From positions 1-22,232 of the IMG/VR virus record IMGVR_UViG_3300045923_000004: a stretch of 22,232 bases of DNA, one strand, 5' to 3'. Source of the DNA: a virus. A program made the translations under genes and the position numbers. Positions 953-14,015 of the stretch are shown one piece after another. The notes beneath the pieces are model-generated. The model was not told the origin of the DNA and did no database searches. It saw nothing but the letters and a program-made list of their open reading frames with translations. Position 1 is the stretch's first letter. Each line of letters starts with the position of its first letter.

Positions 953-1107
953 TGACTAAAGCCGAATTGAAGAAGAAAATGGAAGATTTCATCCAATCAC
1001 AAGATAACCGTGATAGAGATGAAGCATATGGGACTGATCGAACATTCGCAATATCAGTGCTGAAAGAATTTGCCGAAACTATCAACATAGAATTGGGAGT
1101 GGAATAA
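952..1107 (+). CDS. Small hypothetical protein, 51 aa
   Basis: A 51-codon frame starts at the ATG overlapping the ligase stop (TAATG at 950-954) and ends with the TAA that overlaps the clpP ATG by one base. Such double overlap is typical of translationally coupled phage genes and is the main support. The product is charged and probably helical, starting MTKAELKKKMEDF, with no membrane segment or recognisable motif. Function is unknown. Confidence 0.65.
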   Translation: MTKAELKKKMEDFIQSQDNRDRDEAYGTDRTFAISVLKEFAETINIELGVE

Positions 1108-1727
1108 TGGATAAGTCTTTGATGCCTGTTGGTTTGGGTATGATTCCTGCCGTCATCGAATCCGGTGCGCGCGGTGAACGAACTTATGACATCTATTCAC
1201 GCTTGATGCGTGAACGGGTCGTCTTTCTGGTTGGACCTATCGACGACTGGTGCGCCAACGTGCTGGTCGCCCAGCTGCTGTATTTGGAGCATGAGAGTCC
1301 TGAGCAGACCATCAGTCTCTACATCAATTCTCCAGGCGGCTCAGTAACATCAGGTCTGGCAATCTATGACACGATGAAGTTCATCCGCGCACCCATCAGC
1401 ACGATCTGTATCGGTGAGGCGGCAAGCATGGGAGCATTCATCCTGGCGTCAGGTACTAAGGGCAAGCGCTTCATTCTACCCAACGCCGAGGTTATGATTC
1501 ACCAGCTGTCCGCCGGTTTCGCCGGTCAGGGAACCGACATCGCTATCCACGCGGCTATGATTGCTCGCACCAAAGCGAAGCTGAACCGCATCATGGCGAC
1601 CGAAACTGGTCACACTGCAGAAGAGGTAGAGAAGGCTTCTGAGCGTGATAATTTCTTGACCGCTGAAGAGGCTTTGGGTTTTGGTATCGTTGACCGAATC
1701 GTGACGAGAGCTCCTTCTGAAGACTAA
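1107..1727 (+). CDS. clpP: ClpP-like serine protease subunit
   Basis: The 206-residue chain matches bacterial ClpP over its whole length. The catalytic triad is Ser107 (in GEAASMGA), His132 (in MIHQ) and Asp181 (in ERDNF); spacings of 25 and 49 residues equal those of E. coli ClpP (111/136/185). The oxyanion/substrate-strand region NSPGGSV (75-80) is intact. ClpP forms a 14-mer that degrades proteins fed by ClpX or ClpA, including tmRNA-tagged proteins. No ATPase partner is encoded in this window, so host ClpX/ClpA is the likely partner (inference). GEAASMGA differs from the common GQAASMGA by Glu for Gln. The gene is coupled to the 51-aa gene upstream and is followed by CTAAATA over its stop codon. 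Confidence 0.95.
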   Translation: MDKSLMPVGLGMIPAVIESGARGERTYDIYSRLMRERVVFLVGPIDDWCANVLVAQLLYLEHESPEQTISLYINSPGGSVTSGLAIYDTMKFIRAPISTICIGEAASMGAFILASGTKGKRFILPNAEVMIHQLSAGFAGQGTDIAIHAAMIARTKAKLNRIMATETGHTAEEVEKASERDNFLTAEEALGFGIVDRIVTRAPSED

Positions 1728-6269: not shown

Positions 6270-6472
6270 ACCATTATCATGATCAGTTTCCTTTCAGGAT
6301 TCAACTGAACCGGGATTACTATCCAAAGATATCGGAGATCTACCAGCAACTTCGTACGTTCGGTGAAATAGGCGGCGAGTGGACGGCATATGATATGTTC
6401 GGGTATCAGCATATCTACTTCAAGAAGGAAGAAGATTTGAAGAACTTCCAGGAATGGGTCAAGACGCTGTGA
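6266..6472 (+). CDS. Small hypothetical protein, 68 aa
   Basis: A 68-residue, aromatic-rich protein (MNHYHDQFPFRIQLNRDYY, FGYQHIYF) with a helical C-terminus. No known motif. The ATG overlaps the nuclease stop and its end overlaps the SET-domain gene. Confidence 0.65.
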   Translation: MNHYHDQFPFRIQLNRDYYPKISEIYQQLRTFGEIGGEWTAYDMFGYQHIYFKKEEDLKNFQEWVKTL

Positions 6473-6894
6473 AAGAGAAGAATTGGCAGGCTTGGAAGTA
6501 TCTCATGGTCAAAGACAATGAGCACGGCCAATCTGGTTTGTATGCGATGATTGATATTCCATACAAGACAGTCATAGGCGCATTTGGTGGCAAGATAGAA
6601 TGCGTCAGTCCTATACCTGAAAGGATCACCAACTCTATCATTCAGATTGCGATCAACCGAGAGCAGGACATACTTTTGATCCTGACCGGAGAGAAAGATT
6701 TTCGGTGGGAGGGTATCAGCTATATGAACCACTCCTGTGAACCTAACGCCAACATGGTTGCTCAAACTATAATCGTTGCCAATCGAGACATCAAACGTGG
6801 CGAAGAGATTACGGTAGACTACAACAGTTGGAACTTCATTGGTGAGGGTGTGCCTTGCTGGTGCCCAAAGTGTGATGGTAAGGTGACCATATGA
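6454..6894 (+). CDS. SET-domain protein lysine methyltransferase
   Basis: The 146-residue protein contains a near-complete SET domain with post-SET zinc site. Seen: the N-terminal SET strand GLYAMIDIPYKTVIGAFGG (28-46), the SAM-binding/catalytic YMNHSCEPN (90-98), EEITVDY (117-123, catalytic Tyr123), and post-SET C135-x-C137-x2-C140, which with C95 can bind one zinc. SET enzymes transfer methyl from S-adenosylmethionine to lysine side chains and are chiefly eukaryotic; compact versions occur in bacteria and in viruses such as chlorella viruses. The phage target is unknown; host ribosomal, nucleoid or RNA-polymerase proteins are candidates. Start is uncertain: ATG 6454, or GTG 6469 that overlaps the preceding TGA (GTGA). 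The next gene overlaps by four bases. Confidence 0.88.
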   Translation: MGQDAVKEKNWQAWKYLMVKDNEHGQSGLYAMIDIPYKTVIGAFGGKIECVSPIPERITNSIIQIAINREQDILLILTGEKDFRWEGISYMNHSCEPNANMVAQTIIVANRDIKRGEEITVDYNSWNFIGEGVPCWCPKCDGKVTI

Positions 6895-7274: not shown

Positions 7275-7350
7275 CGATGTGTAGCTCAAACTGGCTAGAG
7301 CAGGATCTCTAAAATCCAAGATCAGGGTTCGATGCCCTGCACAACGGCCA
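7275..7350 (+). tRNA. tRNA with CUA (amber-reading) anticodon
   Basis: A cloverleaf can be folded by eye. Acceptor 7275-7281/7340-7346 has 6 of 7 pairs (A7277 opposes A7344). T8-A9 is followed by D stem GCTC/GAGC (7284-7287/7298-7301) with GG in the loop. The anticodon stem is GGAT/ATCC (7303-7306/7314-7317), loop CTCTAAA (7307-7313) with U33 and anticodon CTA at 7309-7311. The variable loop has five bases, and the T arm is CAGGG-TTCGATG-CCCTG (7323-7339). The discriminator is G and CCA is encoded (7348-7350). A CUA anticodon pairs with UAG, making this a suppressor-type tRNA. Oddities: only four clean anticodon-stem pairs and one acceptor mismatch, so activity is not certain. Charging amino acid cannot be told. 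Confidence 0.78.
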
Positions 7351-7947: not shown

Positions 7948-8499
7948 ATGCCAGCATATTCTTATCTCTTGCACCATAAACCTACAAACACATTTTACTA
8001 CGGTGTTCGCTGGGCTAAAGATTGTCACCCAGATGAATTTTGGAGAACATATTTTACATCAAGTAAAAAGAACGTTCCATTACTTCGCACACTATTTGGT
8101 GATGATAGTTTCGAGTTTGAGATCCGGAGGGTATTCAAGTCTGGTAAGAAAGCGGCAGACTGGGAACACAAAGTATTGCGTAGAATGCGCGTATTGGATA
8201 AACCCGATCTTTGGTTGAATAGGACAACAAACACATCTTGGTTATATGATATAAATCCATTCAAAGGGAAACACCACTCAAACGAAACCAGGCAGCGTAT
8301 AGCCACCACTCTTGTTCAGAAAAGCATAAGACCGCCCAATACAAGGGGTATGACTCCTTGGAATAAGGGCATCCCACATTCAGAAGAACAAAAGAAGAAA
8401 ATGAGTGGAAAGAAGTGGATCAACAACGGTACTCTTGAGCGTAAAATACATAATGAAGAAAAGATACCGACCGGTTGGAAAAAAGGCAGAATGTTGTAG
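7948..8499 (+). CDS. GIY-YIG-type homing endonuclease with NUMOD3-like motifs
   Basis: The 183-residue protein starts with a phage variant of the GIY-YIG fold: YSYLLHHKPTNTFYYGVRWA (4-23), then W-x2-YFTSSKK, FEFEIRRVFKSGKKAADWEHKVLRR with a conserved glutamate (E73). The C-terminus has two NUMOD3-like DNA-binding units, NPFKGKHHSNETRQRIA and GMTPWNKGIPHSEEQKKKMSG, plus a KWINNG element. Such free-standing endonucleases cut DNA lacking the gene and spread by gene conversion. It sits between the helical-repeat gene and the PTH2/tmRNA pair; TAGGAG precedes the ATG. The 119 bases before it have no gene longer than 12 codons. It ends in TAG; read-through would add nine residues. Confidence 0.8.
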   Translation: MPAYSYLLHHKPTNTFYYGVRWAKDCHPDEFWRTYFTSSKKNVPLLRTLFGDDSFEFEIRRVFKSGKKAADWEHKVLRRMRVLDKPDLWLNRTTNTSWLYDINPFKGKHHSNETRQRIATTLVQKSIRPPNTRGMTPWNKGIPHSEEQKKKMSGKKWINNGTLERKIHNEEKIPTGWKKGRML

Positions 8500-8531
8500 A
8501 ATTACATCAGAGGACCTCCCTCGTTGTAATT
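8500..8531. terminator. Inverted repeat, possible terminator or operator
   Basis: AATTACA (8500-8506) pairs perfectly with TGTAATT (8525-8531), and an inner GAGG/CCTC pair extends the hairpin. There is no T-run, and the right arm touches the -35 of promoter copy 3, so it may instead be an operator. Confidence 0.4.
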
Positions 8532-8558
8532 GACTCTTACGAAAGATTCAGTTATAAT
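8530..8558 (+). promoter_or_regulatory. Phage early-type promoter, ACTCTTA-N13-TATAAT (copy 3)
   Basis: TTGACT (8530-8535) followed by CTTA, and TATAAT at 8553-8558, give the best -35 match of the set with a 17-base spacer. Transcription should start near 8565, ten bases before the ATG of the PTH2-like gene. Confidence 0.78.
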
Positions 8559-8574
8559 AGATGGAGACTCAAAA

Positions 8575-9279
8575 ATGATGAATTTCAAAGCAGCATTCAA
8601 AGCGTGTGCCGACGCCAAGGATATTTCCAGCGTTGACATCGTACAATACGCTATCCTTCGCGCCATGAAAGCGAAGACGGCTCAGACTATTGAGGACCGT
8701 ATCAAGATAGCATCAACCTTTATCCGCCGGCACTTTCGTTCTGTGAAGAATAGAAAGATGCTCGATAATGGGGTTGATCCAGAAAGAGCGGTTAGGAGAG
8801 CGACCGAAATTACTAAGAGTGCTAAGGTCATCTGTGGCATTCTAGAAAAGAGTATGTTTACTGATGAACGTGAGCGCATCCTCTACAAAAACATCGCGGT
8901 GGCTTTATATGAGCAGTACAAGATCCCTGCGGATCTTTACACCAGACATTACGTCTACATCTTCGTGCGTCAAGATATGACGCCGGAGTATCAGCTAGTC
9001 CAGGCTAGCCATGCGGCGGCTCGCATGGGACAACGTCTAGGATCCAATGGCATTGACCAGGGCAAGTTTGATGAGTTGTATTTCAGTGTGATTGGTGTCC
9101 CTGATCTTCATGGTCTTGCCAAAGCATTGGAAGACTTCAAGCAGCGCGGTATCAAGACCTATCCGTTCATTGAGCCAGACATCGGAAACGTGATGACAGC
9201 ATTCGCTTCCGACCCGGTTTGGTCACATGATCGTAAGGGATTGCTATCTTACAAGAGATTGGTCTTCAAGAAGGACTAA
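8575..9279 (+). CDS. Peptidyl-tRNA hydrolase 2-like protein
   Basis: The 234-residue protein has an N-terminal helical part (1-120) of unknown role and a C-terminal domain resembling the PTH2 fold: YVYIFVRQDMTPEYQLVQAS (126-145), HAAARMGQ (146-153), a strand YFSVIGVPD, helix LHGLAKALEDFKQRGI, and FIEPDIGNVMTAFA. PTH2 enzymes cut peptides off tRNAs released from stalled ribosomes. The assignment rests on pattern memory, so catalytic ability is unproven. The ATG at 8575 is chosen (or 8578) because it follows GGAG by eight bases and lies downstream of the promoter; frame-open codons before it lie inside the promoter. Its stop is directly followed by the tmRNA gene. Confidence 0.65.
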   Translation: MMNFKAAFKACADAKDISSVDIVQYAILRAMKAKTAQTIEDRIKIASTFIRRHFRSVKNRKMLDNGVDPERAVRRATEITKSAKVICGILEKSMFTDERERILYKNIAVALYEQYKIPADLYTRHYVYIFVRQDMTPEYQLVQASHAAARMGQRLGSNGIDQGKFDELYFSVIGVPDLHGLAKALEDFKQRGIKTYPFIEPDIGNVMTAFASDPVWSHDRKGLLSYKRLVFKKD

Positions 9280-9283
9280 ATAG

Positions 9284-9567
9284 GTTTGAATGATTGTAAA
9301 CGCCTGACTAAAGGCATGTTGGACTGGGGTTCGATTCCCCACGGTTCCACCAAATTTCAGGACCATGCTAGAGGGTCCATTATGGGGCCGATCGGTTTCG
9401 ACAGCGTGAGTAATACACCAAGTGCAATCCGGTATGCTACGACCGTAACAGTGCAAAACCATAAATGCATCTAACGATGACATCTATGACACCGTAGAGT
9501 TGGCTCTAGCAGCCTAACCCTCGGGTCTGAGTTTCGGCCGCTTCCTTGTAAACAGAATAAGCGGCCA
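9284..9567 (+). ncRNA. ssrA: Circularly permuted two-piece tmRNA
   Basis: The tmRNA 3' (acceptor) piece comes first, ending in CCA at 9350-9352, and the 5' (coding) piece starts at 9384. Acceptor stem GGGGCCG (9384-9390) pairs with CGGTTCC (9342-9348) in all seven positions, including G3-U70, the alanyl-tRNA synthetase identity pair, with discriminator A9349. The T arm is TGGGG-TTCGATT-CCCCA (9325-9341). P2 pairs CAGCGTG (9402-9408) with CATGTTG (9315-9321), leaving the GAC linker as in E. coli. GACTAAAGGCATG and CCAAGTGCA match conserved tmRNA segments. A 31-base spacer (9353-9383) with a GGACC/GGTCC hairpin would be removed. The tag frame is at 9467-9517, followed by a GGCCGCTT/AAGCGGCC hairpin (9536-9566). 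Ends are approximate. It would rescue stalled ribosomes by trans-translation. Confidence 0.92.
9467..9517 (+). CDS. tmRNA proteolysis-tag reading frame
   Basis: The internal frame resumes at GCA (9467) and reads ASNDDIYDTVELALAA before TAA (9515-9517). The AND-like start and LAA end match known tags; the C-terminal LAA is what ClpX recognises. The resume codon is inferred from the conserved context upstream and from the frame being open to an LAA-stop. Confidence 0.85.
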   Translation, partial: ASNDDIYDTVELALAA

Positions 9568-9590
9568 CTCTTTAACTTAATCAGGCCAGT

Positions 9591-9619
9591 TTTACTCTTA
9601 CAGTTTCCAGGCGTATAAT
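9591..9619 (+). promoter_or_regulatory. Phage early-type promoter, ACTCTTA-N13-TATAAT (copy 4)
   Basis: TTTACT (9591-9596) plus CTTA, and TATAAT at 9614-9619, repeat the same geometry. The predicted start near 9626 gives a 30-base leader with AAGGAAAT before the ATG at 9656, so this copy drives a conventional leadered mRNA. Confidence 0.75.
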
Positions 9620-9655
9620 AGATAATGTGAACTCCCTTAAACAAGGAAATACATT

Positions 9656-10321
9656 ATGAAAACCGCGCAGTGGTTATACCGGCTGTCGATGGTTATTATG
9701 GTTGGAGTGTTGATCTACGCATTGTATCAGACTTATTTGACTGTGAAGTGGTGGCACAATTTCCACCAGCAACATCAACAGATGGAACAAACCATCACTG
9801 ATCAATCGGGTAAGATCACAGAACTGGAACGGAAAGAAAAGTTCTACGAAGATATAGTCGTGACTCAACAGAATGAGATCGCGGCGAAAGCAGCCGCCAA
9901 GAAAGCCAAGGCCGACTTTGTGGCTTCTGAATTGAGATGTCTTGCGGATAATACGTATGCAGAGGCCGGGTTTGAACCGGCTGATGGCCAGTTGGCTGTA
10001 GCAACGGTGGTGATGAACCGGGTGGTTGATCCTCAGTATCCAAAGACAGTTTGTGGTGTTGTTTACGAGCGGCACTTGAATAAAATGAACAACAAGATCG
10101 TTTGTCAGTTCAGTTGGACGTGTAAGCCTCGCCATCGTATGGCCACGGCAGTTTACAAGTCCATTATGGAGATGGTGAAGGGTGTTTATTTCAAACATGT
10201 ACGCAGTGACGAAGTTGCCGACGCAACCCTCTACCACGCCGACTATATCCAGACTCCTAACTGGGCAACCGATGAAACCAAGCTGGCTCAGATCGGTCAT
10301 CACATTTTCTATTCCCACTGA
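9656..10321 (+). CDS. Membrane-anchored SleB/CwlJ-type cell-wall hydrolase
   Basis: The 221-residue protein has an N-terminal membrane anchor (about 7-27, LYRLSMVIMVGVLIYALYQT), a coiled-coil-like stalk (35-90) and a SleB-type hydrolase domain: CLADNTYAEAGFEPADGQ (95-112) with the catalytic glutamate E103, VATVVMNRV (115-123), CGVVYE and QFSW. This family cleaves the glycan strands of peptidoglycan. Topology suggests the enzyme domain lies in the periplasm tethered to the inner membrane, so a lysis or wall-remodelling function is likely. It is the first gene after promoter copy 4, with a good Shine-Dalgarno. Confidence 0.85.
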   Translation: MKTAQWLYRLSMVIMVGVLIYALYQTYLTVKWWHNFHQQHQQMEQTITDQSGKITELERKEKFYEDIVVTQQNEIAAKAAAKKAKADFVASELRCLADNTYAEAGFEPADGQLAVATVVMNRVVDPQYPKTVCGVVYERHLNKMNNKIVCQFSWTCKPRHRMATAVYKSIMEMVKGVYFKHVRSDEVADATLYHADYIQTPNWATDETKLAQIGHHIFYSH

Positions 10322-10644: not shown

Positions 10645-10907
10645 AATCGATCATCCACGTCAATGCCCAGCTGATCAAGCGCAATATTAAGAACAAGACC
10701 ACTCATCCGGTGGTCCGCGTTCAGCAGGGTTCCAAACAACGTTACTGCTCGGAAGCCATCATAGATGGTCCTAGCAGGATCGTATACAGTCCAGAGCGAC
10801 CGCTAAGTTGTGGCGCCAGGCTTTGGATTGAGACAGAGGCAGACGTCACTCTCGTTGACGAGACAACCTACGCAAAGATGCGGGAGATCATGAATGATAA
10901 GAATTGA
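10641..10907 (+). CDS. Hypothetical protein, 88 aa
   Basis: An 88-residue basic, beta-rich protein (IIHVNAQLIKRNIKN, VVRVQQGSKQRYCSEA, IDGPSRIVYSPERPL). The composition is that of a small beta-barrel or RNA-binding protein, but no motif is decisive. It overlaps the preceding gene by four bases and GMP reductase by 14 bases. Confidence 0.65.
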   Translation: MKSIIHVNAQLIKRNIKNKTTHPVVRVQQGSKQRYCSEAIIDGPSRIVYSPERPLSCGARLWIETEADVTLVDETTYAKMREIMNDKN

Positions 10908-12030
10908 TCCGGCTCCTAAGCTCGATTATTCCCAGGTGATGTTGGTTCCCCGTTATAGCCAAGATGGGCCCTCATCCCGCAATAGTGTATACCTAAAAAA
11001 CAAGGATTACATCATCCCTGTAATCGCCGCCAACATGGATGGTGTCGGTACATTTGAGATGGCCCGCGAACTTTGTCGCTGGGACTTGATGACGGCACTC
11101 CAGAAGCACTACACGTTAGAAGAACTGTTAGAGTTCTATCTTCATACTCTTGAAGAAGGCTATACCAAGAACGTGGTCTATTCCATGGGGATCAATCAAC
11201 CTGATTTGATCAAATGGAAAAACTTCTATGAAGAGTTAACGGCTCGCGGTCACGTTATTCCTACGGTCTGTGTTGATGTGGCTAATGGCTATACAGAAGC
11301 AACGGCGGATGCCATACGCTGGATCAAGTCTTCATTCAACACAACCATCATGGCTGGTAATGTGGTCACCAGAGAGGGAGTCTTCCGTCTCGCCGAGGCC
11401 GGTGCCAACATAATCAAGATTGGTGTGGGTCCGGGCTCTGTTTGTACGACCCGTAAGCTGACAGGTACAGGTTATCCTCAATTTAGCGCAGTACTGGAAT
11501 GCGTCCAGGCAGCCAAGGCATGGGTAGAGAAGTTCCCATTCCCTATTACACATGGACCTCGTGTGATGCAACCTCCCAAGATTGTAGCAGACGGTGGTAT
11601 TACATGTCCTGGTGATGTGGCCAAAGCCTTTGCGGCCGGTGCCGATTACGTCATGATCGGCGGTATGTTCGCTGGTCATGATGAGGGTGGTGGCACGCCA
11701 TGTGATGCCCTAGGCAATGAGAAATACATTCAAGGTGCTACCGGTACGATTTTCAACTATGCGCCAATGTCTCATCGTAAGTTTTATGGTATGGCCAGCA
11801 AGTGTGCTCAAGATAAACACAATGGCGGTGTGGCTGAGTATCGAGCCAGTGAAGGTAAAGAGGTCGTGGTGCCCTATAGGGGCAAGGTCTCCAACACTGT
11901 AAAGGAATTGCTGGGCGGTCTACGGAGCGCCTGTGCCTATCAGGGATGCCAGCATCTAGAGGACATAAGTAGTGATGTCCAATTCATCCAGGTAGCCAAC
12001 CAGACAAATAATATCTTTGGGGCATCATAA
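10894..12030 (+). CDS. guaC: GMP reductase (IMPDH/GMPR family)
   Basis: The 378-residue TIM-barrel enzyme reduces GMP with NADPH to IMP and ammonia. GMPR-type features are [10 protein letters not shown] near the N-terminus, the catalytic loop [20 protein letters not shown] (177-196) with Cys184 (E. coli GuaC Cys186), [26 protein letters not shown] and [18 protein letters not shown] followed by [10 protein letters not shown]. The loop reads [10 protein letters not shown] as in GMPR rather than the IMPDH form, and there is no CBS insert. It fits the E. coli enzyme length (347) with short extensions. It would shift purines from guanine to adenine nucleotides during infection. The start overlaps the upstream stop region; the stop overlaps the next ATG. 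Confidence 0.92.
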
Positions 12031-12484: not shown

Positions 12485-13092
12485 GCCAGCACAACATTGA
12501 CCCGTTCAAGATCTTTCAGATTTACCACGCGGTCTTGTTGCACTACACAACCGACTACGACTATCAACTGTACCATGGCCAGACTTCCTACAAAGAAGCA
12601 ACCTTTGAACGCCGCAAAGACAAGTATGCCTACCACAAGATGGTGCGCATGTTCGATGACGGGTACAGCGCCAAGGATATTGAATACTACTTTGCTTGGA
12701 TGTTCTTTAGGACAGACAAGTGGGTAACGACACGAGAGATAAGTAACAACACGCTGCTCAGTTATGAGCTAGAGTGGAAGAACTACAGTGTGGGTGGCCG
12801 GTTGACTTGCTTCAACATGGACATCAAACACATTCAGGAAGCCGGAGGGTTTGATCCACAGACAGTTTTCAATCTTTGTTATCAGGGTGATGTACATTGG
12901 GCATCAATGCTCATCCTGGATAAGCTAAGAGGCGCTTTCGCCGTCATGGATAAGAAGCTGCAAGGTCAACTCCTTTGGGATGACAAATACAAGAAGCTGA
13001 AGAAATTCAGACCGTTTTACAATAGCATAGAACCGATACACGAAATTGATTTTAGACATCACATACCGGAGAACTTGATATGTCAAGAGTGA
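12481..13092 (+). CDS. 59: Helicase loader, T4 gp59-like
   Basis: The 203-residue protein (T4 gp59, 217) begins IDPFKIFQIYHAVLLHYTTD, YDYQLYHGQT and FERRKDKYAYHKMVR, which is the signature of the N-terminal domain of gp59; the second half is the helical C-terminal domain (FNLCYQGDVHWASMLILDKL). T4 gp59 loads the gp41 helicase on gp32-covered forked DNA. Position between the gp33 and gp32 genes supports the call. It overlaps gp33 by four bases and the AAA+ gene by 13 bases. Confidence 0.85.
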   Translation: MSQHNIDPFKIFQIYHAVLLHYTTDYDYQLYHGQTSYKEATFERRKDKYAYHKMVRMFDDGYSAKDIEYYFAWMFFRTDKWVTTREISNNTLLSYELEWKNYSVGGRLTCFNMDIKHIQEAGGFDPQTVFNLCYQGDVHWASMLILDKLRGAFAVMDKKLQGQLLWDDKYKKLKKFRPFYNSIEPIHEIDFRHHIPENLICQE

Positions 13093-14015
13093 ATAATAAG
13101 GTTGACGACGATGAGCCAAGCGATCGCGTTGGTGAAGTCAATGAGTTCTATAAAGGGACTCAAATGTGGGCAGTCAGCAACGGTGACTCCTACTTCCCTT
13201 GCGCGACCACGGAGCCAAAGCTTCCACCTGGTCAATACGTCATCAACTTCAGCGACCAGAAGGGTATCTTCTTCGTAAAGAAAGACATCAATCTGGACAA
13301 GCTGTTGGTACTTCCCGACTCAAAGGCCGAGCGGGTTCTAGAGTCCATCAATCACTTTTGGGCATGTGAGCCCAAGTTCCGCGAGCATGGCTTCCTTTGG
13401 AAGCGTGGCATTATGCTTTGGGGTCCTCCTGGCTCTGGCAAGACCGTCCTGTGTCAGCAGCTTTCCAAGCAGATCGTCGACAAGGGTGGCATCAGTGTCT
13501 ACTTGAACGATCCAGGCTTCACGGCCGAGGGTCTGCGGGTTCTCCGCATGATCGAGAAGACCCGTCCCATCGTTGTTATGATAGAGGACATTGACGCTAT
13601 CGTTGACAAGAAGGGTGAGAGCGCGATGCTGGCCCTGTTGGACGGCGAACTACAGATCGACAACGTCGTATTCGTAGCCACGACCAACTATCCAGAGCGC
13701 CTGGACAAGCGTCTAGTCAATCGGCCCAGCCGGTTTGACGAGATCATCAAGATTGGAATGCCTTCTGCGGCCGCACGTGAGCAGTACATCAAGTACAAGG
13801 TTCCTCGTTTGGCGAAGGACGAGCATGCCGAGGAACTTGCGAAGTGGATTGCTGGCTCAGACAACATGAGCATTGCGCACATCCGCGAGATCATCATCTC
13901 CATCGAGTGCTTGGGTAACAGCGTCGACCAGACTCTGGCTCGCATTCGTAAGATGAATCAGACGAAGCCTTCTTCTACTCAGGAATCTGACAAGAGTTTC
14001 GGCTTCGGCGAGTAA
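13080..14015 (+). CDS. AAA+ ATPase between gp59 and gp32 genes
   Basis: The 311-residue protein has an N-terminal domain (1-108) with no recognised motif and a classical AAA core: Walker A GPPGSGKT (115-122), Walker B VVMIEDID (165-172), sensor 1 ATTNYPERL (200-208, N203), and NRPSRFD (214-220) with arginine-finger candidates R215 and R218. The core is close to the FtsH/katanin/BCS1 group. A helical lid follows (about 235-290). The tail is Ser/Gln-rich and ends FGFGE. T4 has no gene between 59 and 32, so this is an insertion or replacement in a conserved replication module. Substrate is unknown; remodelling of replication or recombination complexes is a guess from position. Confidence 0.85.
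   Translation: MSRVNNKVDDDEPSDRVGEVNEFYKGTQMWAVSNGDSYFPCATTEPKLPPGQYVINFSDQKGIFFVKKDINLDKLLVLPDSKAERVLESINHFWACEPKFREHGFLWKRGIMLWGPPGSGKTVLCQQLSKQIVDKGGISVYLNDPGFTAEGLRVLRMIEKTRPIVVMIEDIDAIVDKKGESAMLALLDGELQIDNVVFVATTNYPERLDKRLVNRPSRFDEIIKIGMPSAAAREQYIKYKVPRLAKDEHAEELAKWIAGSDNMSIAHIREIIISIECLGNSVDQTLARIRKMNQTKPSSTQESDKSFGFGE

Follow-up and report, generated by a model that had tools for sequence, protein, structure and literature searches.

Probable complete gene for a betaproteobacterial-type two-piece tmRNA in a lineage of T4-like phages

tmRNA releases stalled ribosomes and labels incomplete proteins for degradation. A 2022 survey found tmRNAs of any kind in 402 of 18,146 phage genomes and recorded 53 unique two-piece structures; the same paper presents the phage two-piece form alongside the Methylophilales phage Melnitz (PMC9004378). 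The two-piece tmRNA of Caulobacter is functional (reviewed in PMC3985003) and serves as a model for the mode of action of the tmRNA considered here. Whether phage tmRNAs tag proteins and why phages retain them has apparently not been tested in the literature that could be searched. We analysed a 22,232-base viral record from IMG/VR; this whole stretch is called the window. Its positions 9284-9569 very probably constitute a complete two-piece (circularly permuted) tmRNA gene of betaproteobacterial type that belongs to a T4-like phage lineage.

The window aligns over positions 1-22,230 to a 76,220-base contig (G001, the 76-kb twin) with 99.7% identity, and both are free of differences within 9200-9650. 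Judged by its genes, which comprise gp32, a gp59-like loader, baseplate hub, tail tube, tail-tube cap, DNA end protector and RNA ligase, it is a contig of a T4-like phage. ARAGORN predicts a permuted tmRNA (tmRNA*) at 9260-9608 with the tag ASNDDIYDTVELALAA. In an independent Rfam cmscan, RF04321 (tmRNA_permuted, gathering cut-off 47 bits) matches 9292-9517 with 129.2 bits and E=2e-25 over the complete model (1-213). The order acceptor-spacer-coding, the alanine identity with the helices and the tag frame agree with this family as well as the score does. RF01850 (beta_tmRNA) matches 9251-9545 with 92.4 bits, above its gathering cut-off of 84 bits, and surpasses in separate searches both the alphaproteobacterial (68.3 bits) and the cyanobacterial model (40.5 bits). 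Because of the covariance-model E-values, the tmRNA is beyond chance. No riboswitch in the window reached the cmscan threshold. A first-pass annotation, made from the letters, had proposed a phage-encoded, circularly permuted tmRNA with its own tag; ARAGORN, Rfam and the T4-like contig support all parts of this proposal, and the covariance-model match that it had named as a check is significant with RF04321, the betaproteobacterial model ranking before the alphaproteobacterial one. Anatomy, covariation, conservation and synteny of the window tmRNA, as well as the lack of a detected SmpB, were obtained from the sequence.

The features are compiled in Table 1. Each base pair claimed in the first-pass annotation was verified by a script, base by base: The seven acceptor pairs including G3-U70, A73, the T arm, P2, the GAC linker and the 31-base spacer are all present, and the open frame that had been seen to end in a stop is the ARAGORN tag frame, with a GCA resume codon and the end ALAA. 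The 8-bp hairpin after the tag was found in addition to these pairs, and the related phage contig L106 carries GGCAGCTT...AAGCTGCC at its position. The end points proposed at first, 9284-9567, fit these data reasonably well, and the acceptor piece would have its mature 5' end somewhere in about 9284-9292.

Table 1. Features of the two-piece tmRNA locus and its surroundings (window positions)
Feature	Position	Strand	Basis and remarks
Full-length ClpP peptidase	1107..1727	+	Catalytic Ser, His, Asp motifs (AASMG, MIHQ, RDN); 8 kb upstream of tmRNA
tRNA, anticodon CUA (amber suppressor type)	7275..7350	+	ARAGORN and Rfam; 2 kb upstream of tmRNA; C1-G72, G73, encoded CCA, A3-A70 mismatch
Sigma-70-like promoter TTGACT-17-TATAAT	8530..8558	+	11/12 consensus matches; upstream of PTH2-fold gene
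Candidate PTH2-fold protein	8575..9279	+	Foldseek; peptidyl-tRNA hydrolase II-like C-terminal domain, N-terminal extension
Acceptor piece	9292..9352	+	ARAGORN, Rfam, relatives, base check; P2 3' strands, GAC linker, T arm, 3' acceptor strand, A73, encoded CCA
P2 extension	9292-9296 with 9425-9429		5/5 pairs
P2	9402-9408 with 9315-9321		7/7 pairs, two of them G-U
GAC linker	9322-9324		
T arm	9325-9329/9337-9341		Loop TTCGATT
Acceptor stem	9384-9390 with 9348-9342		G1-C72, G2-C71, G3-U70, G4-U69, C5-G68, C6-G67, G7-C66
A73	9349		
CCA	9350-9352		
Intervening spacer, 31 nt	9353..9383	+	Base check; 5-bp hairpin; removal by processing predicted
Coding piece	9384..9569	+	5' acceptor strand GGGGCCG, D-loop-like GGTTTCGAC, P2 5' strands, PK1 region, tag frame, 3' hairpin
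Tag reading frame ASNDDIYDTVELALAA-stop	9467..9517	+	ARAGORN, base check
3' hairpin GGCCGCTT...AAGCGGCC, loop CCTTGTAAACAGAAT	9536..9566	+	9536-9543 with 9559-9566, 8/8 pairs
Promoter-like site TTTACT-17-TATAAT	9591..9619	+	Downstream of tmRNA, before cell-wall hydrolase gene at 9656

The candidate PTH2-fold gene ends 12 bases ahead of the acceptor piece. Its listed open reading frame starts at 8530 with the -35 box of the promoter match, and the gene was taken as 8575-9279. To judge by the consensus matches, this gene and the tmRNA are probably located on one transcript because the next promoter-like site is found only after the tmRNA. The structure model of the protein is of low confidence (mean pLDDT 52.6), and the fold match, in which the top eight PDB matches in Foldseek are PTH2 structures (best E=7e-3), is suggestive. 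No PF01981 or other Pfam match for a PTH2-like domain was obtained even at E=10. In aligned columns, the protein shares 51% identity with one encoded by L106, in which alone, besides the window's own copies, the gene-neighbour comparison found a homologue. In the phages ME3, CBB, XbC2 and Arash, homologues are encoded about 0.5-4 kb from a CUA tRNA; in CM1 and XacN1, no CUA tRNA lies within 6 kb of the homologue. The PTH2-fold gene is separated from the CUA tRNA region by an inserted GIY-YIG/NUMOD3 homing endonuclease-like gene (7948-8499). Elsewhere, the window encodes a phage SET-domain protein (6454-6894, Pfam E=1.3e-12), a phage IMP dehydrogenase/GMP reductase-family gene shared with the relative G002 (10894-12030) and, just before gp32, an AAA ATPase (13080-14015) with a match to PADLOC IetA defence models (E=2.6e-16) and 73% identity to a G002 protein.

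The tmRNA is found in the company of other translation genes. The 76-kb twin carries 37 tRNAs, which cover all 20 amino acids plus CUA, and 36 tRNAs for all 20 amino acids form an array at 11.5-21.5 kb of this contig (L207-L210). G002, the nearest sizeable relative (166,743 bases, gp32 60% identical), carries ClpP (64% identical), the PTH2-fold gene, a CUA tRNA and 39 tRNAs in total. Near-complete tRNA sets resembling that of the twin were observed in G002, G003, G005, G007, G010 and G035. Ten phage contigs with a tmRNA, 65-221 kb in size, were surveyed: Seven have tRNAs for 19-20 amino acids (24-52 tRNAs), and eight encode a ClpP homologue (31-100% identity); since this survey comprised tmRNA-bearing contigs only, the association is a lead, not a result, and no significance is claimed. 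Genome-wide UAG recoding was considered and is not supported, as nine of the 81 open reading frames in G001 end in TAG. A far-reaching reading, which we consider less likely than not, is a phage-owned quality-control kit for translation composed of tRNAs for 20 amino acids, the amber-suppressor tRNA, the PTH2-fold protein from the same transcript, the two-piece tmRNA and the phage's own ClpP. It would sustain translation and the degradation of tagged proteins when host tRNAs, tmRNA or mRNAs are attacked, and in some cultured phages it would bring a two-piece tmRNA into one-piece hosts. A narrower version of our best explanation (given below), compatible with it and in our judgement rather doubtful, casts the tmRNA as the quality-control partner of the amber-suppressor tRNA: Read-through of UAG in host or phage genes would yield nonstop complexes, which the phage tmRNA would clear. 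In E. coli, suppressor read-through is dealt with by SsrA (Ueda et al. 2002, as cited in PMC3985003), four of the ten contigs (the twin, G002, G007 and G035) carry a CUA tRNA, and in a further contig, L081, one directly follows the tmRNA. However, no suppressor tRNA is seen in the other six of the ten, and the TAG stops retained in G001 also count against this version.

Our best explanation, which we consider probable, is a complete two-piece tmRNA gene whose product would perform trans-translation; we infer its expression, processing, charging, tagging and benefit as follows. Transcription, probably starting at the promoter in front of the PTH2-fold gene, would yield one precursor. By analogy with known two-piece tmRNAs, host tRNA-processing enzymes would remove the 31-nt spacer, and the resulting acceptor and coding pieces would stay joined through the acceptor stem and P2. 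The tmRNA would be charged with alanine by host AlaRS via G3-U70, and host SmpB would deliver it to ribosomes that have stalled on mRNAs which are truncated or read through. Subsequently, the tag would be added, and its ALAA end would direct the product to ClpXP-type proteases, possibly including the phage ClpP, a possible partner in the degradation of tagged proteins. The likely benefit would be a continued supply of free ribosomes and the clearance of broken proteins during the destruction of host mRNA and perhaps also of the host's tRNA and tmRNA; in this setting, the tmRNA would belong together with the complete tRNA set of the phage. A search of 20 phage records (the twin and 19 others) detected no SmpB, and use of host SmpB is therefore expected. 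Trans-translation under phage control, dependent on host SmpB, is plausible. The missing SmpB would also suit a decoy or inhibitor whose tRNA-like body would titrate away the host's SmpB, AlaRS or tmRNA and in this way suppress, not perform, trans-translation in the host; as cited in PMC11915505, a CDS-less phage tmRNA form (DS6A) inhibits the endogenous tmRNA in E. coli. We regard this function as unlikely because the coding piece, the resume alanine codon, the open tag and the degron end, none of which a decoy needs, are conserved in relatives. Among 58 distinct viral tags, the last residues are AA in 51 and LAA in 41; conserved ends combined with diverged tag bodies point to selection for a protease-recognised end. 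A permuted tmRNA on the minus strand of L081 (3274-3728), the one followed by the CUA tRNA, has a long tag, AKASTFKYMQVPASVALAAIDGEFALAA, with an internal ALAA.

A permuted-tmRNA pattern search of IMG/VR matched 103 viral stretches. The initial remark that phage tmRNAs are few holds as a proportion (402/18,146, PMC9004378), but not as a novelty in view of these stretches. Covariation, which supports the tmRNA call independently, was analysed in 24 non-redundant tmRNAs from gp32-bearing T4-like phage contigs, aligned with MAFFT without structure. The acceptor pairs are standard in all 168 cases (7 pairs x 24 tmRNAs), G3-U70 is invariant, and three of the seven positions exhibit compensatory changes (G-C, C-G, A-T and T-A type pairs); T arm and P2 pairs covary likewise. 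The gene order nuclease - tmRNA - hydrolase - gp59 - gp32 is found in many T4-like contigs as in the window, with a nuclease of the PD-(D/E)XK type and a cell-wall hydrolase. At the same place, G002 carries a permuted tmRNA (100.7 bits, tag ATENASEEFRLAA read by hand) that ARAGORN missed. ARAGORN also misses the tmRNA of the nearest relative (L106, 3829-4110), which has a 16-nt T arm that may close as 6 bp with a GCGA tetraloop, lacks the usual T-loop and contains an internal TATAAT in its acceptor-piece region. Distances between tmRNAs correlate with those for gp32 (Mantel r=0.53, p=0.0002, 24 rows). In a tree with 18 bacterial two-piece tmRNAs, which has few strong branches and long end branches and was used solely to place the window tmRNA among phage tmRNAs, it groups with the viral ones (97% SH-aLRT) on a long branch (0.69). 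The highest core identity to it in this set, 64%, belongs to a viral tmRNA. Its long branch possibly reflects relaxed constraint or an altered function. Because the place between nuclease and hydrolase/gp59/gp32 is kept in many relatives, we favour an old, maintained lineage gene over a recent host capture. Capture from a host, as initially suggested, is as a recent event unsupported by the synteny, the correlation with gp32 and the phage tmRNAs as nearest tree relatives; the best fit of the betaproteobacterial model is compatible with an old origin there. A passive remnant of a host tmRNA, acquired at a tmRNA att site through integration or imprecise excision, accords with the frequent use of tmRNA genes as integration sites and with fragments in prophages (PMC9004378), but is already disfavoured and highly improbable, as the gene is complete, its position and covarying pairs are conserved across diverged phages, the genome is T4-like and no integrase was found among the window proteins searched.

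When the window tmRNA itself served as blastn query, 50,697 phage records yielded zero matches, and related tmRNAs were then used as queries. These revealed two-piece tmRNAs above the Rfam cut-off in Pseudomonas phage PaMx31 (L255), Xanthomonas phage XacN1 (L256), Achromobacter phages Axy11 (L257) and JWDelta (L261), Stenotrophomonas phage BUCTxx99 (L259) and Acinetobacter phage BUCT628 (L260). The tmRNA is unannotated in all six records, that of PaMx31 being devoid of any annotation. Pseudomonas, Xanthomonas and Acinetobacter hosts generally have a one-piece tmRNA. Brevundimonas phage Bajun also has a two-piece tmRNA above the cut-off, which is already annotated. The unannotated copies in PaMx31/SM1, XacN1, BUCT628 and BUCTxx99 open the tagging question to laboratory testing.

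The two-piece phage tmRNA as a kind is already known from the 53 structures (PMC9004378). What may be new is the conserved synteny in the T4-like lineage together with the translation-kit company (tRNA set, amber-suppressor tRNA, ClpP and PTH2-fold gene), and the same may apply to the tmRNA genes without annotation in cultured phages of Pseudomonas, Xanthomonas, Acinetobacter, Stenotrophomonas and Achromobacter. The window locus and its relatives show that T4-like phages maintain the two-piece tmRNA as a gene of their lineage. Like the window tmRNA, that of Melnitz (PMC9004378) is phage-encoded, circularly permuted and provided with a complete tag in a T4-like myovirus background. It is, however, of the alphaproteobacterial type, precedes a transcription coactivator gene and has a link to a glutamine riboswitch, whereas the window tmRNA is of the betaproteobacterial type and lies between the PTH2-fold gene and the cell-wall hydrolase gene. 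RF04321 was built from bacterial alpha, beta and cyano sequences (PMC11915505), and the window core shows no difference from it. One of the bacterial loci, a 'Bacillota' MAG contig with an Alcaligenaceae-type two-piece tmRNA (L191), is probably misbinned. With betaproteobacterial RF01850 tmRNAs (for example the Alcaligenaceae, Herbaspirillum and Azoarcus loci L189-L206), the window tmRNA shares the permuted order, the acceptor/T-arm layout, P2 and, in the hairpin after the tag, a loop motif of the CCTTGT..AC.AA type. It differs from them in a shorter stretch between the tag stop and the 3' hairpin and in the tag body, ASNDDIYDTVELALAA instead of the typical ANDERFALAA or ANDESYALAA types.
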